The translations under genes were made by a program, and so were the position numbers. Below, piece by piece: positions 2,458 to 64,000 of a DNA stretch of 64,000 nt; positions within the stretch are counted from its first letter, which is position 1; each line of letters begins with the position of its first letter. The notes beneath the pieces were generated by a model. That model was not told where the DNA came from and made no database searches. It was given only the letters and a program-made list of their open reading frames with translations. Origin of the DNA: Symbiodinium sp. CCMP2592 (lineage: Eukaryota > Sar > Dinophyceae > Suessiales > Symbiodiniaceae); contig CAJNDT010003279.1 of the NCBI GenBank assembly GCA_905221615.1, positions 154,501 through 218,500 of the forward strand, given 5' to 3'.

Positions 2458-2830
2458 GGGTCAGGGCTTAGGGTTAAGGGGTGTAGAGTTTAGGGCTTGG
2501 GGCTTCAGGGTTTAGGGTTTAGGGCTTGGGGCTTTAGGGTTTGGGGGTTTAGGGGTTTAGGGTTTAGGAACCCCAAAATAATACTTAAAGGATCATGGGA
2601 AATAGTAACTAGGGTAATAATCAAGGTAACTATACTTATAACCCCAATTAAGAAGCTTATAACCTTACTTACTAAGTCCCATGATCCTCCAAGTAGGGTT
2701 TAGGGCTTAGGGCTTTGGGGTTTAGGGTTTTGAGTTCAGGGTTAAGGGGTGTAGTGTAGGGTTCAGGGCTGGGGAGCTCTAAGGGATACTGGAAAGGCTT
2801 TAGGGTTCGGGGTTTAGGTTTCAGGCTTGT
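2458..2830. repeat. Telomere-like TTTAGGG block (degenerate)
   Basis: Many TTTAGGG and GGGTTTAGGG variants on the plus strand, interrupted by foldback copy 1. TTTAGGG is the known dinoflagellate telomere repeat. Confidence 0.8.
2582..2695. mobile_element. Foldback (MITE-like) element copy 1
   Basis: Ends TACTTAAAGGATCATGGG and CCCATGATCCTCCAAGTA form long inverted repeats; the interior is also near-palindromic (GGTTATAAG type motifs). This copy sits inside telomere-like repeats, intergenic. Confidence 0.85.
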
Positions 2831-4644: not shown

Positions 4645-5095
4645 AAAGGATCCACCCCAACCCTAAACCCCAAACCCCAAACCCCTCACAGGAGCCCCCT
4701 AAACCCCAAACCCTAAACGGCTCTAAGCCCCTTTACACCAAGGAGCCCTTAAAGGGAGCCCTTAAAGGAGCCGTTAAAGGAGCCCTTAAAAGGATCCCTT
4801 AAAGGAAGCCCTGCAAAGAGGAGCCCTTTCAAGAACGCGTCGCCGCGACTGGGGCCCTCGGTCGTTGAAGCTGGACGTGTCCAGGGAGATGCCATCGCGA
4901 GAATCTCGGGCTTTAGGGTTTCCAGGGGGGGCTCTAAGAGATACAAGAAGGGCTTCAGGGTTTAGGGGTTTAGGGTTTAGGGTTTTAGGGGTTTGGGCTA
5001 GGGGTTTAGGTTTTAGGGTTAAGGGTTTAGGGTTTAGGGGTTGAGGGGTTTACGTAGGGTTTAGGGATTTAGGGTTTAGGGTTTAAGCTCTGAGG
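4645..5095. repeat. Telomere-like block, both orientations
   Basis: CCCTAAA variants from 4645 to 4730 and TTTAGGG variants from 4910 to 5090, facing each other around the 4.75-kb tandem repeat. Confidence 0.75.
4742..4806. repeat. Tandem repeat of AGCCCTTAAAGG
   Basis: Four to five units of AGGAGCCCTTAAAGG-type sequence, related in style to the repeat at 1.5-1.8 kb. Confidence 0.75.
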
Positions 5096-8453: not shown

Positions 8454-11286
8454 GCAATAATAATAATAATAATAATTCTACGACTAATACTACCAATACT
8501 ACTACTACCACTACTACTGATACTACTACTAGCAGGATCAGCAGAGGAACGATCCAGATCCAAAGACAGCATGGGCCTACAAGCCCTACCAGGAGTGTGT
8601 CAATCGAAGACCCCAAACCCCAAAGCATGGTAATGAGGACTAGGATGAGGAAAGGATCAGGAAGAGAATGGGAATGAGGCAGAGAGGATGATGACAATCC
8701 TCGTGGGTTTTCCTGATGAAGATGATGGTTACGACCACTGAAATGATTCTGTGCTCAAATCACGTGTACAATCGTCACCAGTATGAACACGACCGAGATT
8801 CGGATCCTCTTCAATCGCCTGAATGACCGCAGAAAACGGTTTAGGTTTCAGGTTACAAAAACGCTTGAGTCCGAGAGCAACATCAATCGGAATGAATATC
8901 GAAAGCCCCCCCTGTACTGTCCCGATGCTGCTGCCTCCTCCAGGAGGAAGCCAAGGGTGGGGAGCGCATCGAAATTGCTGCAATCCGGCGCAACCTGCCG
9001 GTTGAGCGTCTAGGGCTGGAGGGTATGGGAGCTGGCATTCCAGGACTAGGCATTGGGGATGCACCCTTCACGCTTTTTCTGTTTACCTTGTCTTCTCGCC
9101 CTGGTCTGACTTCATCCACGTCCATACTGACAGCGAGTTTCCGTACAAATCACAGGAAACTGCACACTCGGAGTCTCCAGGCCTGTGACTATCACTCCGG
9201 TAGCAGAGACTACCCATCTTCTTGCTGCTGCTTTCCACGACTACGACTACTACTGCTACTACTACTACTACTACAACTACTACTACTCCTGCTGATCCTT
9301 TGCTGCTTCGGCCTTGAGAAGTTCCGCCAGCTGCCGGGCGAGGCGGGTAGGCGCTGCCAGCGAGGAGGTCCTGGTAATGTGGGGGGCCTTACTTGGAGGA
9401 TCATGGGACTTCGTAACTGGGGTTATAATTAGGGTAACTATACTTATAACCCCAATTAAAGTACTTATAACCTTACTTACTAAGTGCCATGATCCTCCAA
9501 GTACTATTTTTGAAGTTGCCGTCGTTAAGGGTGTTTATAAGGAATACAACGATGTGTACTCTTCAGGTTCTATTCTCGGGGTCTACAAAAATGGCATGGA
9601 GTCTATAGGGTTTAAAAGTATCTTCGAGTAGAGTATCACGAAGATGATCGATTCTCATGGTTCCAATACAACCGTTGTTGTCATCACCGAGCTTGTCATT
9701 GACACTCCTGGGAATCGAATAACCGTGGTCTCAGGAATGAAATAGCCCTTGTCTTGGAAGAGGGGTGTCAAACAATGAGTCAATGTAAACGAGATAGGAA
9801 AGTCTCCAAACCTCAAACCTTAAGCCCAAAAGCCTAATCCCTCACCCTGAACCCCACAAACAATCCAGTAATGGTACTGGGCAAGCCATCACAAACCCGT
9901 AATCACTCAACAACACTCACTACAAGCACCGTGAAAGCCGACAAAATGCTCAAAAAAATTGAAAACTTGCGGAGAAAACTAAGCCCTCAACCCGAAACAA
10001 CGTGAACTTGTGGCTCCCGGTGTCGAGGGCGGCGGCGCAGGCGGTGTAGGAGCCCGGGGCCCCGCAGAGATCGGTCTTCGAGCCATTCAGGGTCAGATCT
10101 CTGAGGGACACCTGAAGCGGTTTTGGGCTTCGGGCGGTTTTGGGGTTTAGGGTTTAGAGGGTTTAGGGTTTGGAGTTTGGGTTTAGGGTTTAGGGTTTGC
10201 GGTTTAGGGTTTCAGGTCCAGGTTTGAGGGTTTAGGGTGCAGGTGAGTTTCAGGTGGCTGTGGTGTCGGCGGGAGCGTTGACAAAGGAGGTTGGGACTGA
10301 GTTCTAATGGGCTTCTATTGAGGTTCGTGTGAGATTTTCCGGCAATGGCTCATGAAAACAAAGCCTCGCGAAGACTTAGGGCTTTTTCGAGTTTACGGTT
10401 CGGGACCCCGCCTGCCAGAATCCAGGCTTCCAGACGGGTGCCCACTTAAGCTCGGACTCCATCCGCTCAGCATCCACCTTCCCGAAGCTGATCTCGCCCC
10501 CCTCAAGGGAGAAGTAGACGGCAAAGACCGGCCGGGCAAGCTTCCGACTCTTCACCTACAGTCACGGCAAAAAGCAGTTCGACGAGCTTGTACCAATACA
10601 AACAGCAGCAACAACAGCACTAATGGTGATGGCAATATTCATCAGGCTAGGAAGAGTGATGTTGAAAAAGAAACAGAAGAGCCATAATTCCTAATAACCA
10701 CTACTTACGTCCCAGTCACCAACTCATCGAAGAGGCAGAAGCCGTGATCCTGGGAAAGCTGTGGAAGGCCGAGCCCAAGCACTCCATCATAGGGCGCATT
10801 GCGAAACGGATGCTCACTTTGGTTGGTGGCCTCCACAAAGCTCAAGGCTGCGCAGAGGTCTTGTCCCACGCACACCTGGTCCTTCGCGTAGTGGCCGGTG
10901 ACTTGTCCCGTGCCGAAAGTCAGCGTCACGGCCTCGCGGGTGTAGTTGGCGGCGTCGATGTCTTTCAAGCACAGCTGGCGCTCTGCTGTGCTTGATTGGC
11001 TGGCATTGTAGCGCCTGCTTTGCAGGCAGCTCGGTGCTGAACAATGACTCGACGGGATCACAACATTGGCACTCCCAGTGTCAAAGGTCATGCGAAAGCT
11101 CTGGCTTGGTGAACCGACTGCCACCTCCGCAAAGTACTCGACCGTGCTTTGCCGTCGGCCCCAGCTGTCGGGTAAGTGCCTCCGTTGCCTTGTGAGTGGC
11201 ACGACCACCACTCCGGGCTGTGTGGACTTCCCACCGAGCGATTGAAAGGCCAGAGTGGCCACCAGGCACCTTCTTGTCTGCTTCAT
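7031..11286 (-). CDS. Pepsin-like aspartic protease (family A1), complete, 8 exons
   Basis: Endopeptidase with two catalytic Asp residues, probably secretory or vacuolar. Exons in coding order: 11286-10720, 10540-10412, 10111-10017, 9370-9313, 8994-8935, 7965-7891, 7357-7275, 7124-7031 (stop TAA). Together 1,161 nt, in frame, about 386 residues, normal for A1 enzymes. Seen: a basic then hydrophobic N-terminus that could be a signal peptide, first active site FDTGSAN (Asp ~69), YDGVLGLGL, the lobe-2 strand VFAVYFSLEGGEISFG, second active site ALDTG/TSS (Asp ~262, split by an intron), DCSNFDALPTLGF, LTPQDYV, GPLFLLGDPFLR and the closing RYYTVYDR...IGFA. Donors are GT, GC, GA, GC, GC, GT, GT; every acceptor is AG. 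The start Met was chosen because it precedes the hydrophobic stretch; the frame stays open upstream to 11442. A foldback element lies 19 bp upstream of the fourth exon. Family call is firm; substrate is unknown. Confidence 0.88.
7176..7262. repeat. Telomere-like CCCTAAA block in the last protease intron
   Basis: Repeated CCCTAAACCC variants between protease exons 7 and 8. Confidence 0.75.
7419..7525. repeat. (TA)n microsatellite, protease intron 6
   Basis: Two long TA/TATATG runs between protease exons 6 and 7. Confidence 0.9.
8398..8478. repeat. (AAT)n microsatellite, protease intron 5
   Basis: Near-perfect AAT units, followed by ACT/TAC units to 8530. Long ORFs here are low-complexity artefacts. 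Confidence 0.95.
9390..9503. mobile_element. Foldback element copy 2, in protease intron 3
   Basis: Same ends as copy 1, opposite orientation. It begins 19 bp upstream of the fourth protease exon (9370), replacing much of the normal 3' splice region. Confidence 0.85.
10133..10230. repeat. Telomere-like TTTAGGG block in protease intron 2
   Basis: At least seven TTTAGGG motifs with slight variation, next to exon 3. Confidence 0.8.
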
Positions 11287-15538: not shown

Positions 15539-18500
15539 CGTCTCCGTTCGTGTCCACCTCCGCCAGTATCTTCTTGATCTGCTCCTGTGTAGCCACGATA
15601 CCAACCGACCAAAGCTTCTGTTGGCTATGAAACGTCCCACAGATTGGGCTGAATAAGGAATCGGTTCATCACACGAATCCGATCTCGACTGAACGTCAAA
15701 ACGGACGATTTAGTGCAAGTTCCCCCCAAGAGCCAGTATCCCAAAGCCCGCCTTCGACACGGTGCGGTTGACCTGAACGTCTCCAAAAAGAGGGGATAGG
15801 CTTGTCCAAGCTCCCTAGAGGCGACAACAAGGTAGGTAGACCTCCATATTATATGATAGACTATATGATAGCACATAGTATGTCTTTTTGATGATATTAC
15901 AGTATGTACTATAAGAGATATATTAGATCGATTCGTTTGGAATCCCAAAAGTGAAGACGCCCCCGCCTCTAGAGATTCAAGTCACGTGAGCTCTCAGGGA
16001 TATTCATGTTAATGCGGCTCTTTGGGGTTTGGGATTTGATTTGCTTCTTCTTTTGAGGGGGTCCTGAAAACTCACCATCCCAATGGTTGCCCCTGGATAC
16101 CTACTTGGATTACAGAAAATCAACGTAGTCGGTTCATTTTCCTGTCGTCGGTTTGGACGCTACCAGCTGGTAAACTTAAACTCAAGGACGAATTTCTGCA
16201 TAAACCTAGTACTAGAGGTGTTCCTGGACCCCAAGAGCATGTAGAATAATGGCCTTTTACAGGATTTGGGCCATTATTTTACCTACCTTTGGGAGTTTAG
16301 GTTTCACCTCCTACGCTTCTGTGTTAGCTGTCGGTTTCGCCTTTCTAGGCCCCACATGTCAGCACTCAAATTAATAGGACTGAACAATAATACTCATAAA
16401 ATCATCGTAATCATAAGCTAAGAATCACAATAATGTTGATATAGTTTAAAGAACCGACTGCTCTAGGCGAAGAGGGAAAGCTTCTGAAAGTCGATCTTGC
16501 TAGGCAAGCCGCTTGGGTGGAGGGTAGAGTTTCGCACATGGGGTTATGCATGGGGTTATTGTGAATCTGAAGTATACGACTTTCGGGGCTTAGTCTTTAG
16601 GGTATATAACGCACGTGTACCTCAAATGCCCGTGAAGCCTGCAAAGTCTGACGAGCCCTCCTTTTCAACACAAGATAACCCTAAAACTTTAACCCTCTTC
16701 ACCTAAAACCTATACTCCTGAACACCCCCACCCAGCTTCTCGGGGACCCCCAGGCTCTCTTCTACATTTTCAAAAACCCGCAAAGGGCAAAAGGGCAATG
16801 GGGATCCCTGCCCTAAAAGGGGCTACATGATGGCTATGTAATGGCGACCTTAAGGTTTTATACCTAAGGGTCCTTGTTGGGGCTCCCTCCTTTTCATCCT
16901 TGGATACCCCAAAGTCCCCAAGACTGGAGCTATGAATGGCCCCGAAGCCCCAGACCCTGGAACCCAGAGGCCCGAAAAGCCTAGAACTCATAAAGCCGTA
17001 TTTAGGGTTTAGGGTTCGGGGCTTAGCAAAGTCAGCAACCCCGAAAACCTTGCAGCTCCGAACATTAGAGCACGGACTACCCGACTTTCAAAAAACGAAT
17101 GGAACCCCCTTTGACAGAGGTGTGAAGCTCAAAAGCCAGGCCTCTTTGGTGCCGAGCACTTCCTGGATCTCTTTGAGGGAGATCCGGCCGTCATCTGTCA
17201 GGAAGCAAAGCTTCGGGGGCTCGGGTCTTTAGGGATTCTTTGGGTTTAGGGCTGTAGGGTTTTGGGGTTTAGGGCTTTAGGGTTTTGGGCTTTTGGGCTT
17301 TAGGGTTTTGGGGTTTAGGGATTTAGGGTTTTGGGGTTTAGCGCTCTATGTGTTGTGCTCTTTAGCGTTTGTGTTCCAGGAGTTTGATTCGATCATCTGG
17401 AGAGTGTGTGGGGAAGATGTGTGCATATCCTCTTGAAGTACGAGGACAGCCCCAAACCCTATCTCACACCCTATAAACCCTAAATGGCTTTCGAAGGTTT
17501 CCAGAGGGGGGTTGGAGGTGTGGAACTGCAAGACTGGAGTCTTCTAGCAGATGGGGCCTCCTACTTGGAGGATCATGGGACTTAGTAAGTGAGGTGATAA
17601 ATACCTTGATTGGGGTTATAAGTATAATTACCCTAGTTATAACCCTAGTTACTAAGTCCCACGATCCTTTAAGTAAACTGTACTGTGATTCTCCACGGTT
17701 CCTGCAGGGTTTATGTAGGGGTTTCCGAAAAGTAGGGGTACCTCATTTTGGAGTCCTTTTAATAAGGATCCTACGATTTAGGATACTACATTAGGGTCCC
17801 CTATTTTCGGAAACCCCCATTTGGATGTTGAATAAACTTGCAATCCGAGGGTTGGATCTTGGGATCTTTCAAGCCTTTTCTTTTGAACGCAGGGCTTGCA
17901 CTTTGGTGTTTAGCGGCTGCGCCAGATACGAGACCCGAAACCACAAACCCTAGACGCTAGCCTAATTTAAGCCCCTTAACCCCTAAACCCTATAACGCTA
18001 GTTCAGCCACGCGGCCGTTCTTGTCGAAGACACGGAAGGCTGCCCAGAGAGCGCTCTCCTGCACCTTGGCGAAAGGTTTCGGGATCTGTTGCATTTCAGG
18101 CTCCAGCTTGTTTTTGTAGGTTCAGCTTTAACTTGGAACTTAGGGATTGGGATTGAGGCCCCGAACTCTCTGGTTCGCATATGGGGTTATACAACAATAC
18201 TGAAAGCATGATACGGTGTGGCGAGGCGCTTTGCGGCCGTCAGATGTTTCAGTGCCAGCCAAGTGGAGGCTGGGGTTGGTGTTAGTCCGCCGCCAAACGG
18301 CGGCACTTTCGTTGCAGCTGTGCCTCTTCCCTACTGCCCAGAAAGGTTGGGCTTGCATTTTGAGTCCAGGGCTGAAAGCTCTGGTGAGGGGCGGGAGCGG
18401 GTGTGTGCAATAGTAAGACGTTATAAGATCATCTACACCCCATCTGACACTGTTTGCCTGTGCCTTTTATTCTACACCCTAAACCTCGAAGACTGAACAT

Positions 18501-56709: not shown

Positions 56710-58590
56710 GCTGGAGTCATCAAGCTTTCTTCGAGCAAAAAGATCTCCCTGATCAACTTCTCTGTGTCCATGCTCGCCGGGTTCTTTGGCGTCATACGTT
56801 TCATCCGGAGCAAGGCCAAGGAGAGACATACAACAAACTCGCAAATAGCAATCACTAGTAGCGATTTGTACCAACAGCAAAAACACGAATCACAGCACTC
56901 TTTACTGTAAGAAAGTCAGCTCCCACTCAAAAACACCCAATACTGAGGACAGCACAAAGCATACTAGGCTCGAAAGCGTGAGCATCTCCACCGGACGCAG
57001 GCGCGACCTTGGGCTGCCAAGTCACAGGACTCTTAGTCGGATTCAGGGACTTGTAGAAAGCGGGATGTCGGTACTGTGAGGCAGAATCCTCAACCTCACT
57101 CGAGGCCGCTTAGCACACATGTTCCTTGCGGTTTTGAAGGATGTGGCAGTGCAATTACAGTAGAGACCTCAATGAAGAATATTTTTTCCTCGTGCCAAGC
57201 AGCTCCACTGCCGTTAGGTATCGTCGGCGACGTTCTTCGTCCGTGATCCAGGCGAAGTTGCCACTGATGATCTGGACGCACATGGTCGCGGCAACACCGT
57301 GTCTGGCTCGACGCGGACTCTTCGAGCTTGTGGGTTTAGGGTTTAAGGTTTATAAGGCTTCGGCTTTAAAACTTGGGGTGTACAGGTGCTCAGAGTTAGG
57401 GCTTGGGCTTAGGGGTTCTGAAGTGAAATGTTGGAAAAGCGCAAGGAGTACGGTGACATGACAGCTTCTGGAAAGGAGGCCCGGTGGTCTTTGCAGATGC
57501 TGCAGAAGTGGCGGCAGGGACCGACTCTCTCTCTCTCTCTCTTTTTCTTGCGCGCAAGGGACCGACTCCGAAACCACAATCCAAGGGAAGTTTTCAGATG
57601 CAATGGGGTCTAGAATTTTGGATTTTCGAAGATCTGGGATTTACGGTGCTGGGCCCGACTCTACTCTAATTCCCAGCTGCTAGACGAACCTGTTCGAACC
57701 ATTGTAGTTAATTGATGCAGCTGTTCAGGACCGTTTCGTGCGAATCTCCTTGCTCATTGCACCGCCGGTCAGATCAAGAATTGAGTGGGCTTTTTGCTCG
57801 TAGCTGTTTCCCTATGCGCAGTGCTTTCGTGATGTGTATCACACCTTTTGACACAGATGTCCGTGGGCCTCTGCTCGGTCCTGAGACGACCGAGATGACC
57901 TGACCTTGAACAATAAGGTTTGGCCACCTCTGCTTCCTGCGACGATTTCAGCGGGGCGTGCATGGACATGACGTGCCGTTTAACCACTCGGAGGTTACGC
58001 ACAACAAACCTTGCCACCCTCGACTCAAAAACTCCTTAAGACTATATCTAAGCTTTGCAGCCTTCGAGCCCAACAATATGGTCAGAAAACACACGGGTCA
58101 GTTGCTTCAGTTGTCTCTTGCAACACATAAATCGCGGTGACATCTGGTCCCGGCTGTTCAAATCACACAGAGCCTGGGTTTACATCGCCACACAGAGCCT
58201 GGGTTTACATCGCATTGTCGGAAAAGGGCAACTTCACAGCAAGCAAGCAGCATTGGGTCTGGCTGCTGGCCTCCTTTCCGTGTGGAGGTTCCACGATACA
58301 TCATTAGCTACTGGGAAGAACCGGTGGCTTGTAAATGGTTAACATACTTTACGAGGTTAGCTATCTGTTTACAAACAAATGTAAAGGGTTAAGTTGGTTT
58401 AGCTATAGGGGTTAGCATAGCTTAGAAAAGGGGGTTAGTCTAAGTAACATAAGGGGTCCCTTATACGTCTAAAACCTTCCAAACCCTGAACATAAAAGCC
58501 TCAAGCCCTAAACCCAAACCCTGCAAAACACAAGTCTTTTTTTGCATGCCGGTCGTTCACGGTCTTCCGGCTATAGAGAACCTCACCCTC
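56710..58590. other. Mostly non-coding region
   Basis: One weak exon candidate at 57.2-57.3 kb, a short telomere-like run near 57330 and 58500, a TCTC run near 57525, and a short direct duplication (CACAGAGCCTGGGTTTACAT) at about 58166-58213. Confidence 0.5.
57190..57320 (-). CDS. Possible exon, unrecognised (weak ABC-transporter flavour)
   Basis: Minus strand reads MCVQIISGNFAWITDEERRR followed by YLTAVELLGTR. The G-N-F-A-W motif recalls the start of nucleotide-binding domains in ABCC-type transporters, but no Walker A is nearby. I would not name it on this evidence. Confidence 0.2.
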
Positions 58591-59501: not shown

Positions 59502-60990
59502 TTAGCAGCCGTTCTTCTTCTTCCACAGCAGAATGGCCTCTCTGTGGGCCTCTCGCTGGCACTCTACCACTTGCTGCTCCGAGAAGCCTTGCTGCTTTGC
59601 CCACGTTCCGGCTCGCTTGGACATGCGAGAAGCATAGTTCTTCTGGATGCAGCCGTCCTCCCAGACAATTTGGAACTTTCGCTTTCCATGCGAGCCTTGG
59701 GCTTGCTGCTCCTTTGCTTTGCCTTGGCCTTTCTTCGAAGCACTCTTGTCCTTGGACTTTCCTTTGCCTTTGCCCTTGCCCTTCTTCTTTGGATCTTGGC
59801 CTTGGCCATTCGTTTTTGTCTTGTTCTTGGCCAAGTTTCCTTGGCCACTCGCTGCAGCTGCAGCAGCCGGCTTCTTCAGAATCCCAGCTTTGCGATCTTT
59901 GAGCTTTCGGAACAAATCTTCGTCCTCGAGATCGTTCTCGGCAGGGAGCGACTCCGTTGCTTCGGGTTCTTCGGCTGGAGGCAGGGCCAGCTGCAAGGCC
60001 GACTGTCGCCCTGGCGAGGTCTGCTGTGTCGCAGCCGAAACCGCCTGGGCTGGGTTGCCCAGAGCAAAGCCGACCCCGGCACTGCTGCTGCTCAGGTCGC
60101 CTCCTGTGATGGAGTTCCGTCCAGGGGTCCTGCAGCAGGTATACAAATGGAAAAGCATGCATGGGCTGTGTATACAGATGCAAAACAAAGGAAAAGATAA
60201 AAGAAGCATGCAGTCCTCCTTTGCAAGATATTGGCGCCTGCAGCAAGCTGCAGCTCCCTTCGCCCACCATCCTGGATGGCATTCTGACCGCAGCCCTGGT
60301 CCAGCAGTCTTTCCAGTCGCCCGAAGCACTGCTCCATGCGGCTCTGGAACTCGTTCGCATGCTGCTCAGACACGGCGGCCTGGCCATCTGGCCTCGGCAG
60401 CCTCTGCTTCTTGTTCTTCTGCAAGAGCTTCCGTTTTCACGGATTCCCAAGATCTCTTGAAGACCTGGACCTCTTCGTAGATCTCTTCATATGTCGGCAT
60501 CTGACTGAGCTCGCCGGCTGCCAGTGCCAAGAGGAAGGCCAGGCCTTTCTTGACCGTCTGTTCTGTGAGGTTCCTCAGCCAGCTGCAGATACCTTTTCAG
60601 AAGGATTTCCAGCCTTGCCGGTGCTGGCGACTTTTCCAGCATAGACCACTCAGTGACCGTGATGAAGTTTCCCGGCTTCAGCAAGGTCTGCGGCTTGCTT
60701 TCCTCCTTTCGCTTGTTCGGCGTATATGTAGTATCTGGCGGCGGTGTTGCAGCCGTGGCCGTTGCCAGAACTTTGGCTTCAACTTTTTCAAGCAACCGTT
60801 CTGACAGGGTGCTCTCGAAGCTCAGATCCTGGATCGTCTGCTTCATCTGCATGGCTTGCCCTAACGACAGAGAGCCAAGGCTCTCCAGCCGGGTGCACCA
60901 GCTGTTCATCAAAGCATCGACCGAAGCCTTGCTCCCACTTTGTGCCCACTCGGCCATAGGGCTTAACTCGGCCTGCAACTCTCGGGCCAT
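59502..60990 (-). CDS. K/Q-rich protein of unknown function, one intron and two frame changes
   Basis: Starts at Met 60990 (MARELQAELSPMAEWAQSG). Frame a runs to about 60590; the protein-like reading then moves +1 (LRNLTEQTVKKGLAFLLALA) and near 60430 moves +1 again (NKKQRLPRPDGQAAVSEQHA). An intron of about 110 bp follows, with a GC donor near 60256 and acceptor CTGCAG before 60129. The last exon to TAA/TAG at 59502 contains KKPAAAAAASGQ, a long Lys/Gly/Gln-rich stretch (KKKGKGKGKGKSKDKSASKK) and a conserved-looking C-terminus (KRKFQIVWEDGCIQKNYASR). No domain is recognised. The two shifts may be mutations, sequencing errors or true frameshifts. The gene lies between the transposase-like gene and the zinc-ribbon gene. 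Confidence 0.4.
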
Positions 60991-61198: not shown

Positions 61199-63280
61199 TC
61201 ATCGGAGGGAAGCAGGCAGGATGATTTGTCGTCGGCCTCCGGCCATGTCTCTCCATGTGCATGCACACAGAAAGTCTCTGCATGGCAGCAGATGCAGGCT
61301 GTCTATGCAGGAGCACTCCCCCACGAGGTCATCGCAAAGCAGAGAAGAAATGGAATGCACAACACTGTAGGCTTGCCCTGCCAGTTCCACGAATGCCCAG
61401 ACAAGGGCACACTCCAAGCAACCGTTCCCTTCAAGCAGCACCGCATCGCCACGACATATCCGTTCCCCGGAGGGCAGCCTGACTTTTTCTGCCACATGAA
61501 TCACTTGTGCCGAGGTCAGCTCCGGAATGATTTTGCGAAGTGCTGCCGCCTTCCTCCGAGAAGCTGGCTTCGGGTCCTGCAACTGCAGCATCGCTGCGAA
61601 ACAATCAGCTCTTGCCAAGCAATATAGTTCTTGTCCAAGAACTTCTCGGAGAAGACCCTGCTCGTAAGCAGAAGTCTTCTTGATGTCCTCGGCGAATCTC
61701 TTGATAGTGCGATGCTTTCTTTCGTGAGTGTAGCACTGAACCATGAAACCCCACTTTTCCAGGTGCGAACCGAAGTGGAGAAGCCAATGGAACTTGGAAT
61801 GCATGCGGTCCTGCCACTCAGCAGCATGCACTGCTTGCAAGAAATCGGAAACGTGCTTTCTCATCTGGCCGGGCGAAACCGCTCCCTCACTGCGAGCTCT
61901 CTGGCAGCATGCCACGAGTTTGTCCAGCTGCAAGAAACATTGGATCGCTTGCACTGCCTCAACATTTGCATTTGCCCTGGCGAGCTGCCTGAAGAAACAA
62001 GCCAATATTGGAGACAGTGTCAAGCCTTCGGAGGCCGTGCATTTAAAGGTCTCGGCTTCCTTGCATGCTTTTGCTCGGGACTGACCCAGCATCCCTTCGG
62101 CCTTGGCCGAGATGTTCCGGGGCAGGGTCCACTTGGCCACGTACTCGTCGGCGATTTCCCAGAGATTGGGAAACTGCTTCTGCAAAGCTTCCAAAACAAG
62201 CCAGGTCACTGTCTGGAAGACACCGGAGACCAGCAGGGTGTGCATGCTGTCGTGGCAATACTGTGAGACCGGCCGGACCAGCCATCGTTGATCCTCTTGT
62301 TGCAGCAGGGAACAACTATTATAAGTCCAGCCGGTGGCTTGCTGCCACGTGCTGAAATCTGCAGCATTCAGAAGCATCTTCTTCTCTGCCAGTTTAGCCA
62401 TGGCCTCGTGGATGGATTGGTCGGTCGCAAGCGAAAGCTTACTTTCTCGGATCTCAGAGGAACCGACCACGGGGAGCCCGCTGCTGTGCAGGATATCACA
62501 TCGTTGTGCTATTACATTCCTGCACAGCATGCACATGCGGGTGCCAGCATCCCCCTTGCAGCTCCATAGAGCTTTATGGGCACCACCGTCTTGAACGATC
62601 ATTGACAAAACCACCCGGAAGAGGACGGGCGGACCTCCTGGTCGCTGCAACGATATGCACCCGTGCTCCAGATGGTTGGCCGGCCGCATGAATATGTCTC
62701 GCAGGATTTTCGGGATCCATTGAGAGACACCTGCTTCGGCCTTGGCCATCAGGCTGGATCGGAGCAGTCCTATGCATAGCCACGACTCCTCGTGCTGCAA
62801 TGCATAGCTTCCAAGTTCTACGAACGAGGCATAGCAAGCCCAGATTTTTCTCTTCGTCTGGACTGCCAAAGGATTACCCGGCACGATCTCGTCCGTATAG
62901 AGGATCAGCCGCCATGCCGAGCTGGGGCTCGGAGGATTCTTGTCGATGCACGCCCAAAAATATTGGGCGAAGTTGCTGTCGGCATCCGAGATAGCAGCTT
63001 GCAGCAGAGCCCAAAAATCGACACTGGGTATCTGCAGCTCTGCACCATCTGTCTGCAAAAGTGACAGACGATTGAGGATCCTATTCTCTTTCAGGGGTTG
63101 CCAGGCAGCCTCGGCTATATGTTTTCTTTGTGTGAGTTCCGGGACACCCTCGTCCCGGAGAACTTTGCAAACTTCGGACAAAGCCGAGGCTGTGAGATGG
63201 GGCAATTTCCTTCTCAGAGCATTCACCTTCTGAAGCTTCGCTGGTCTTTCAGCAAAAGCATCGGTGCTGCTGGAGGCCAT
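61199..63280 (-). CDS. Putative DDE transposase-like protein (693 aa)
   Basis: Intact ORF from Met 63280. Seen: WRLILYTDEIVPGNPLAV (Asp ~130), IVQDGGAHKALWSCKGDAG followed by MCMLC (Asp ~244), YCHDSMHTLLVSGVFQ (~342), KFHWLLHFGSHLEKWG (~496), and CYTHERKHRTIKRFAED (Glu ~520). This order, an Asp in a strand, an Asp near a CxxC, a D-x-M-H motif and a late Glu in E-R-K-H, resembles CACTA/EnSpm or Plavaka-type transposases; the resemblance is my inference. I recall the Y-[ST]-D-E-[IV]-x-P-G-N-P-L motif in many dinoflagellate proteins. Residues ~1-60 are helical and may bind DNA. The 0.4-0.7 kb upstream hold the hairpin array and 22-bp repeats. Alternative: a domesticated or unclassified dinoflagellate family. 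Confidence 0.55.
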   Translation of the reverse strand: MASSSTDAFAERPAKLQKVNALRRKLPHLTASALSEVCKVLRDEGVPELTQRKHIAEAAWQPLKENRILNRLSLLQTDGAELQIPSVDFWALLQAAISDADSNFAQYFWACIDKNPPSPSSAWRLILYTDEIVPGNPLAVQTKRKIWACYASFVELGSYALQHEESWLCIGLLRSSLMAKAEAGVSQWIPKILRDIFMRPANHLEHGCISLQRPGGPPVLFRVVLSMIVQDGGAHKALWSCKGDAGTRMCMLCRNVIAQRCDILHSSGLPVVGSSEIRESKLSLATDQSIHEAMAKLAEKKMLLNAADFSTWQQATGWTYNSCSLLQQEDQRWLVRPVSQYCHDSMHTLLVSGVFQTVTWLVLEALQKQFPNLWEIADEYVAKWTLPRNISAKAEGMLGQSRAKACKEAETFKCTASEGLTLSPILACFFRQLARANANVEAVQAIQCFLQLDKLVACCQRARSEGAVSPGQMRKHVSDFLQAVHAAEWQDRMHSKFHWLLHFGSHLEKWGFMVQCYTHERKHRTIKRFAEDIKKTSAYEQGLLREVLGQELYCLARADCFAAMLQLQDPKPASRRKAAALRKIIPELTSAQVIHVAEKVRLPSGERICRGDAVLLEGNGCLECALVWAFVELAGQAYSVVHSISSLLCDDLVGECSCIDSLHLLPCRDFLCACTWRDMAGGRRQIILPASLR

Positions 63281-63380: not shown

Positions 63381-63472
63381 ACACGCCTCCGTGGAGGCTT
63401 CCACACGCCTCCGTGGAGGCTCCCACACGCCTCCGTGGAGGCTTCCACACGCCTCCGTGGAGGCTTCTCGCA
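63381..63472. repeat. 22-bp tandem repeat, four units with dyad core
   Basis: Units begin at 63381, 63403, 63425 and 63447. Each contains GCCTCC-GT-GGAGGC, a 6-bp inverted repeat around GT. It lies between the hairpin array and the start of the transposase-like gene. Confidence 0.9.
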
Positions 63473-63689
63473 TCCTTGGATGCTGGGTCTCCATGGCAAC
63501 AACAAACCAAGCTACAGGACGGGTGACACAACAAATGGCCCCAGGAAGGGGTGCCTGTCTGCGAACACAACTGCACCAAACCTTGTCTGTGCTCGACTCT
63601 GGGCATCTGTATGCATGCTGCACGACTGCTTGGGCCCGGCTTTCCGCTGCTCAGAGAACACATTTCGGCAGGCCCACAAAACCCCCAAA

Positions 63690-63941
63690 ATATGATATAG
63701 AAAAAACTATATCATATGAAAACAAAGTCAATCATATGATATAGTAGAAACTATATCATATGAGGCCAAAATATTACATATGATATAGAAAAACTATATC
63801 ATATGACATCTGGCCCCACAGACTTAGATGATATAGTAGAAACTATATCATATGGCCAGCGAGGCCATCATATGATATAGAATATACTATATCATATGGT
63901 TTCCTTTCAATATATATGATATAGAAAAAACTATATCATAT
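63690..63941. repeat. Six-hairpin array of the 12-mer CATATGATATAG
   Basis: Six inverted pairs of CATATGATATAG / CTATATCATATG separated by 5-6 A-rich bases, at 63690-63717, 63733-63762, 63777-63805, 63828-63854, 63869-63898 and 63914-63941. Units 2, 3 and 5 have perfect 12-bp arms; units 1, 4 and 6 have 9-11 bp. Centres are 43-49 bp apart. The sequences between hairpins differ from one another. Confidence 0.95.
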
Positions 63942-64000
63942 TTTCTACGTTTGGATAAGGTTCCAATCTTAAGGTTAACAGAAAATTATTCTTTAAAAAA

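Follow-up and report, generated by a model that had tools for sequence, protein, structure and literature searches.

Near the right edge of the 64-kb window analyzed here (the whole stretch of DNA under study, C3279:154501-218500), one 12-mer is repeated in inverted pairs at nearly even intervals, which raises the question of what this array belongs to and what it does. To our knowledge, little is known of how defined DNA sites control genes in genomes of the dinoflagellate type. The reading that we put forward with moderate confidence, from a comparison of related copies, is that the array acts in cis as an operator or enhancer, a putative protein-binding region placed centrally in a transposon and beside its presumed transposase gene.

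Structure of the array

The initial annotation described six inverted pairs with loops of 5-6 bp, and these are confirmed at 63689-63942 as six pairs of the 12-mer CATATGATATAG. Eight of the 12 half-sites are exact and the remaining four deviate at positions 1 and 3 only; 10 of the 12 half-site columns are invariant, with variation confined to these outer positions. The loops of dyads 1 through 6 measure 6, 6, 5, 6, 6, and 6 bp and are A-rich on the plus strand, the spacers between dyads measure 14, 14, 19, 14, and 14 bp, and the whole stretch coincides with a local dip in GC. The centers of neighboring dyads lie 44, 43.5, 48.5, 44, and 44 bp apart, a measured range of 43.5-48.5 bp that agrees with the 43-49 bp, mostly about 44, reported initially. 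The units, to which no strand is assigned, are as follows.

63689-63718: dyad 1, loop AAAAAA
63733-63762: dyad 2, loop TAGAAA
63777-63805: dyad 3, loop AAAAA, six bases long in most other aligned copies
63806-63824: the sole long spacer, 19 bp, a length shared by the third spacer of the sister element C2280
63825-63854: dyad 4, loop TAGAAA, left arm altered at positions 1 and 3
63869-63898: dyad 5, loop AATATA
63913-63942: dyad 6, loop AAAAAA

With up to two mismatches allowed, the 12-mer has 15 matches in the window, 12 of them in the array; shuffled sequence averages 2.1, and none of 100 shuffles reaches 15. Hairpins with arms of at least 9 bp number 14 in the window, of which the array supplies six, and five shuffles gave 1-5. 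These counts exclude a chance origin of the array. The DNA between the pairs had been called unrelated, and within the array this holds: mean identity is 90% among the repeats and 25% among the 14-bp spacers, the latter the same as for shuffled spacers. A further suggestion, that the sites lie on one helical face, is not borne out, since at 10.5 bp per turn 44 bp is 4.19 turns and one interval is 4.6 turns, the intervals as a whole spanning 4.1-4.6 turns.

Elsewhere in the window, a LINE-like ORF at 37661-45278 matches reverse transcriptase and, weakly, endonuclease, and it overlaps a second ORF with a ubiquitin-hydrolase-like domain. Telomere-like interstitial tracts of TTTAGGG are numerous across the window (2463-2568, 4957-5085, 10139-10238, 17227-17345, and others).

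The array lies near the center of an 11.3-kb DNA transposon

Homology among copies extends beyond the array on both sides and stops at window positions 58309-58310 and 69624-69627 (copies C557 and C435). The element so bounded is about 11.31 kb long, 58311-69624 in window coordinates, and runs beyond the window into L014, the stretch to its right. By these coordinates, 5378 bp separate the array from the left end and 5682 bp separate it from the right. The ends are inverted copies of CTGGGAAGAACCG..., the left reading CTGGGAAGAACCGGTGGCTTGTAA and the right, on the other strand, CTGGGAAGAACCGTGGCTTTGTAAG.

58309-58310, no strand: target-site duplication TA, left copy; the right copy is at 69625-69626, beyond the window
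58311-58336, plus strand: left terminal inverted repeat CTGGGAAGAACCGGTGGCTTGTAAAT; the right end CTGGGAAGAACCGTGGCTTTGTAAG is on the other strand at about 69600-69624, in L014
58311-64000, no strand: left 5.7 kb of the 11.3-kb element, which runs on to about 69624 (L014:1001-6625)

Both ends could be read in eight copies; among a further set of eight retrieved for their ends, five of which count here, C5140 and C2223 yielded one end each and C4778 neither within the stretch. The target duplication is 2 bp and matches in seven of the eight, being TA in C3279, C435, C301, C474, C602, and C497 and CA in C454; the flanks of C557 are mismatched (CA and CG). Dispersed copies, terminal inverted repeats, and a target-site duplication mark a cut-and-paste DNA transposon, so that the initial proposal of a DNA transposon is borne out, and from its many near-identical copies the element looks recently mobile. 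The array is not, as had also been suggested, a transposon end, since it is 5.4 and 5.7 kb from the ends, whose sequence is different (CTGGGAAGAACCG). Terminal inverted repeats had been anticipated near 58 kb and past 64 kb, and they were found there, at 58311 and about 69624; the second array anticipated with them was not, as neither a second array nor an inverted partner occurs at 57-64 kb of the window. Within the 11.3-kb element, the array core is present in exact form at 5.4-5.6 kb and nowhere else. The 400-bp ends carry repeated words of their own, with 10 eight-mers seen at least three times (shuffles gave a mean of 0.5 and a maximum of 3). At 60427-60430, about 150-160 bp present in nine of ten compared copies are absent from the window copy (pairwise alignments; C452 aligns differently).

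Genes of the element

All long ORFs examined are on the minus strand; three (727, 270, and 436 aa) lie on the right side of the array and three (693, 167, and 275 aa) on its left. The array itself is intergenic: it lies upstream of the 693-aa gene, in the stretch that separates this gene from the 436-aa ORF.

61199-63280, minus strand: 693-aa ORF, presumed transposase, with candidate acidic triad D130, D344, and E520
60487-60990, minus strand: 167-aa ORF of the element
59502-60329, minus strand: lysine-rich 275-aa ORF within the element
L014:1489-2799, minus strand: 436-aa charged ORF

The probability that the 693-aa ORF is open by chance is about 1e-9. A scan of the element proteins against Pfam gave nothing above cut-off; the whole 693-aa protein matched no Pfam entry at E of 1 or below, its pieces had two weak matches below cut-off (E 0.43 and 0.17), neither of them to a transposase, and NCBIfam gave nothing above cut-off and one match at E 0.23. 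For families B and C of this protein (33-36% identity), a limit of E 10 still yielded no Pfam match. The blocks YSDEVxPGN, QDGxAHK, KGDxGTRxCLLC, HDxMHT, and FHWLLH...ERKHR are common to families A, B, and C, and we take them to resemble the blocks of CACTA tnp2. D130, D344 (in HDxMH), and E520 (in ERKH) are conserved in families B and C and are a candidate catalytic triad. Based on the structure of the element and these shared blocks, we presume that the 693-aa protein is a transposase; its single-sequence structure prediction (pLDDT 37) was unusable. Ahead of the family B and family C genes examined lie co-directional ORFs (L030:5-1243 and L031:76-1299), each about 410 aa long and lysine-rich at one end. 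No dyad array was found within about 2 kb upstream of the one gene copy examined in each of the two families, and the array is thus not required by every such protein.

The 436-aa protein is a candidate DNA-binding protein. Its ORF is the fastest-changing of those compared and contains a CPICW...HRTW stretch that by eye is also present in C2280 (L032, about 310-480). Upstream of the 167-aa ORF, the 13-base GCCATTTTGGCTC at 61083-61095 matches a piece of the dinoflagellate spliced leader; a match with at most one mismatch arises in 14 of 100 shuffles.

The array accompanies the gene across the genome

The 12-mer occurs 251 + 234 times in the 1.1-Gb genome and its reversed control 112 + 102 times. 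Among the first 100 places listed there are ten clusters of at least four 12-mers, most with 44/44/49 spacing, and in all ten the array center lies about 0.4-0.55 kb before a match to the 693-aa gene. The core dyad, CATATGATAT-N8-12-ATATCATATG, is more specific, with 139 occurrences in 1.1 Gb against 9 for its reversed control; 50 of the 139 were checked, and all are on 17 contigs bearing the 693-aa gene, within about 0.7 kb upstream of it. In the converse direction, at least 67 rows in the genome match the 693-aa protein (with 64 of 769 candidates scored), and among the matches listed 29 span residues 1-692 or 1-693 at 98-100% identity. For a set picked by gene (19 of these 29 full rows plus the partial copy C2078), the array is upstream in 20 of 20, with 11-13 core words in each. 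The association of array and gene foreseen by the initial annotation is therefore seen from both sides, and neither an array without the gene nor a solitary array was encountered among the 50 dyads checked of the 139. Such linkage is to be expected among copies of one element; hence what it shows is membership of the array in the element, not action on the gene. A satellite or general host site is unlikely given this linkage.

The same counts bear on the proposal that a host protein, such as a promoter, chromatin-boundary, or replication factor, binds the array, which would then form the promoter platform of the element in AT-rich DNA. The position upstream of a gene and the local GC dip would fit such a role, as would the decreased GC at dinoflagellate domain boundaries described in one review (PMC11453091), although presumed promoters are there placed in domain centers rather than at boundaries. 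A general host site would occur elsewhere too, however, and the core dyads (139 against 9 in the control, the 50 listed all on contigs with the element gene) tell against this proposal, which we consider unlikely.

Outside this genome, searches of plasmids, phages, and viral contigs, of Rfam at the gathering threshold, for tRNA, and of PDB sequences (four matches, all at E of 1 or more) returned nothing relevant. Prokaryotic genome contigs contained no array, only five loci with one dyad each, with an extra half-site beside the dyad in L001 and one about 1 kb away in L002. One or other of the two 12-mer strings occurs in six publications, none of which, judged by title, concerns this subject, and the literature, at incomplete coverage, yielded no described dinoflagellate element of this kind.

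Sites are kept and intervening DNA changes in diverged copies

The copies are related by descent, and we compared three diverged lineages (C452, C160, and C256) with the window copy, C3279, as reference. Differences from the window number 5/144 in arms, 9/35 in loops, and 27/75 in spacers for C452, and 6/144, 10/35, and 27/75 for C160, that is, 3.5-4.2% in arms, 26-29% in loops, and 36% in spacers. Arms differ from loops and spacers together at p = 1.8e-10 (C452) and 3.7e-10 (C160) by Fisher's test, and from the flanks at p = 0.029 and 0.025. The left flank has 20/336 (C452) and 20/315 (C160) differences and the right flank 50/442 and 52/408, the latter inflated by the interval 64.0-64.25 kb, where 8 of 10 copies depart from C3279 by 12-14%. 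In C452 the loop and spacer lengths are unaltered save for the one base missing in the third loop of the window, while in C160 one loop and one spacer contain insertions. One unit has been lost from C256, which shows no contrast between arms (5/121) and spacers (3/75), a pattern that either speaks against a functional reading or is that of a decayed copy. Seven near-identical copies (C301, C435, C454, C474, C497, C531, and C557), with 0-3/144 differences in arms and 1-4/75 in spacers, have too few differences to add much support. Over 31 copies, variable columns number 21/144 in arms, 19/35 in loops, and 48/75 in spacers. That sites are kept while the DNA between them has changed suggests an array on which a DNA-binding protein docks.

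Four tandem 22-bp units with the near-palindrome GCCTCCGTGGAGGC occupy 63381-63467, between the array and the start of the gene; the 250-bp bin with this repeat has 54 gap bases in C452 and 75 in C160.

The array could in principle have no function, palindrome conversion or template switching keeping the dyads alike and scrambling loops and spacers. Conversion among the 12 half-sites could indeed lie partly behind the likeness of the arms, some of the spacer changes are clustered, and the spacers differ by 36% where synonymous sites of the adjacent 693-aa gene differ by only 1.5-1.7% in C452 and C160. Moreover, the array falls in a block of raised divergence between near-identical genes (63650-65300, reaching into L014), which probably reflects exchange with another lineage; spacer divergence is above even the flanks within this block. 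Conversion within an array, however, cannot halt drift between lineages, and the core is the same in C2280, where the DNA of the gene is 22% different. The spacer lengths kept in C452 also argue against this explanation, which we regard as quite improbable.

A sister element retains the core and part of the spacing

At C2280:583400-586300 (L032), a homologue of the 693-aa gene is broken by stops, its two pieces having 75% protein and 78% DNA identity. Seven dyads with the core CATATGATAT lie at the homologous place, some of them degenerate and dyads 6 and 7 most so. With units assigned by hand from the listed half-sites, their lengths are 30, 30, 32, 29, 29, 30, and 31, their starts are 44, 44, 51, 40, 43, and 44 apart, and the spacers are 14, 14, 19, 11, 14, and 14. 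Half the half-sites (7/14) match the core exactly, one has one mismatch, four have two, and two have three. At up to two mismatches and with overlaps included there are 21 half-sites, against a mean of 1.2 and a maximum of 8 in 500 shuffles. Over the first three spacers, 24 of 47 bases agree with those of the window (a level that 0.7% of shuffles reach, with 16.6 expected), from which shared descent of the two arrays follows. Hence C452 and C2280 both retain the core CATATGATAT, the unit of about 30 bp, and, over the first four units, the 14/14/19 spacing, while loops and spacers change.

These dyads also bear on whether the hairpins act in RNA, in the processing, termination, or stability of a polycistronic transcript. 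Folding is far above that of shuffles (z of -12.5 for minus-strand RNA and -15 for single-stranded DNA), and position 11, A-T in the window, is T-A in three of the seven C2280 dyads, a two-sided change that keeps the pair, although a change of DNA half-site looks alike. Position 11 is unpaired in the other four, however, position 12 is paired in one dyad and unpaired in six, and five of the seven have 2-3 mismatches within the first ten pairs. The changed arm cells over the 31 copies (62 cells, representing 22 distinct changes, with 13 gapped cells set aside) are all one-sided, which is weak evidence that the DNA sequence rather than the hairpin is under selection, because so few changes make two-sided ones unlikely anyway. 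Action in RNA therefore seems to us rather doubtful.

Comparison with known systems

The initial annotation likened the array to the subterminal repeats of CACTA/EnSpm elements. In Jozin of Chenopodium, Tgmt* of soybean, and En/Spm of maize, a 12-bp motif is likewise present in many direct and inverted copies beside a transposase gene. CACTA terminal inverted repeats begin CACTA, or also CACTG; the ends here start CTGGGAAGAACC (CTGGG), and the two bases preceding them vary (TA, CA) and are repeated after the right end. CACTA motifs are arrayed at both subterminal regions, unlike the single central array here, in which all motifs are paired at nearly fixed spacing, the core is confined to 5.4-5.6 kb, and the ends have other repeated words. 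The comparison thus fails on array position, on termini, and on the length of the target duplication, which one account gives as 3 bp for CACTA/EnSpm (CMC) elements (PMC4158355) and which is 2 bp in seven of eight copies here. Jozin has 19-23 motif copies, 8-13 per end (PMC8978399), and the subterminal repeats of En/Spm are bound by an element protein (PMC2613891).

By function, the array would be closer to another system than to these plant repeats. In phage Mu, the operator and internal enhancer are a group of sites inside the region that controls the transposase gene, and the enhancer is bound by transposase and required in cis for transposition. The array here is placed similarly and may serve regulation and perhaps complex assembly, an enhancer role being conjecture.

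CRISPR arrays likewise have near-identical palindromic repeats and unrelated spacers of nearly fixed length, but the spacers here are 14 bp long and common at the same rank to most of the 31 copies, and the ORFs scanned include no Cas family, so this is not a spacer-acquiring locus; matching of spacers elsewhere in the window gave one chance match with two mismatches.

Proposed function of the array

The binding sites for a dimeric protein envisaged by the initial annotation are the best reading of the conservation pattern. We propose that each inverted pair would be bound by one dimer, and that the fixed spacing would allow contact between neighboring dimers. Occupancy of the array could then set the expression level of the adjacent presumed transposase gene, and the array may perhaps also assemble a transposition complex. 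The putative binder is most likely encoded by the element, as either the 693-aa protein itself or the 436-aa protein. The short repeated dyad with its conserved core is a ready probe for this binding protein.

A wider proposal is considerably more tentative, and we think it possible rather than likely. It is that the element represents a superfamily, as yet undescribed, of large DNA transposons with several genes, probably from dinoflagellates, with CTGGG ends and 2-bp duplications of TA type, in which six or seven phased dyads at the center would be bound by the element's own protein and serve as combined operator and internal transposition enhancer, a Mu-like arrangement in a eukaryote. If the operator or enhancer reading is true, a transposon can carry its protein-binding array in the middle of the element and not at its ends.
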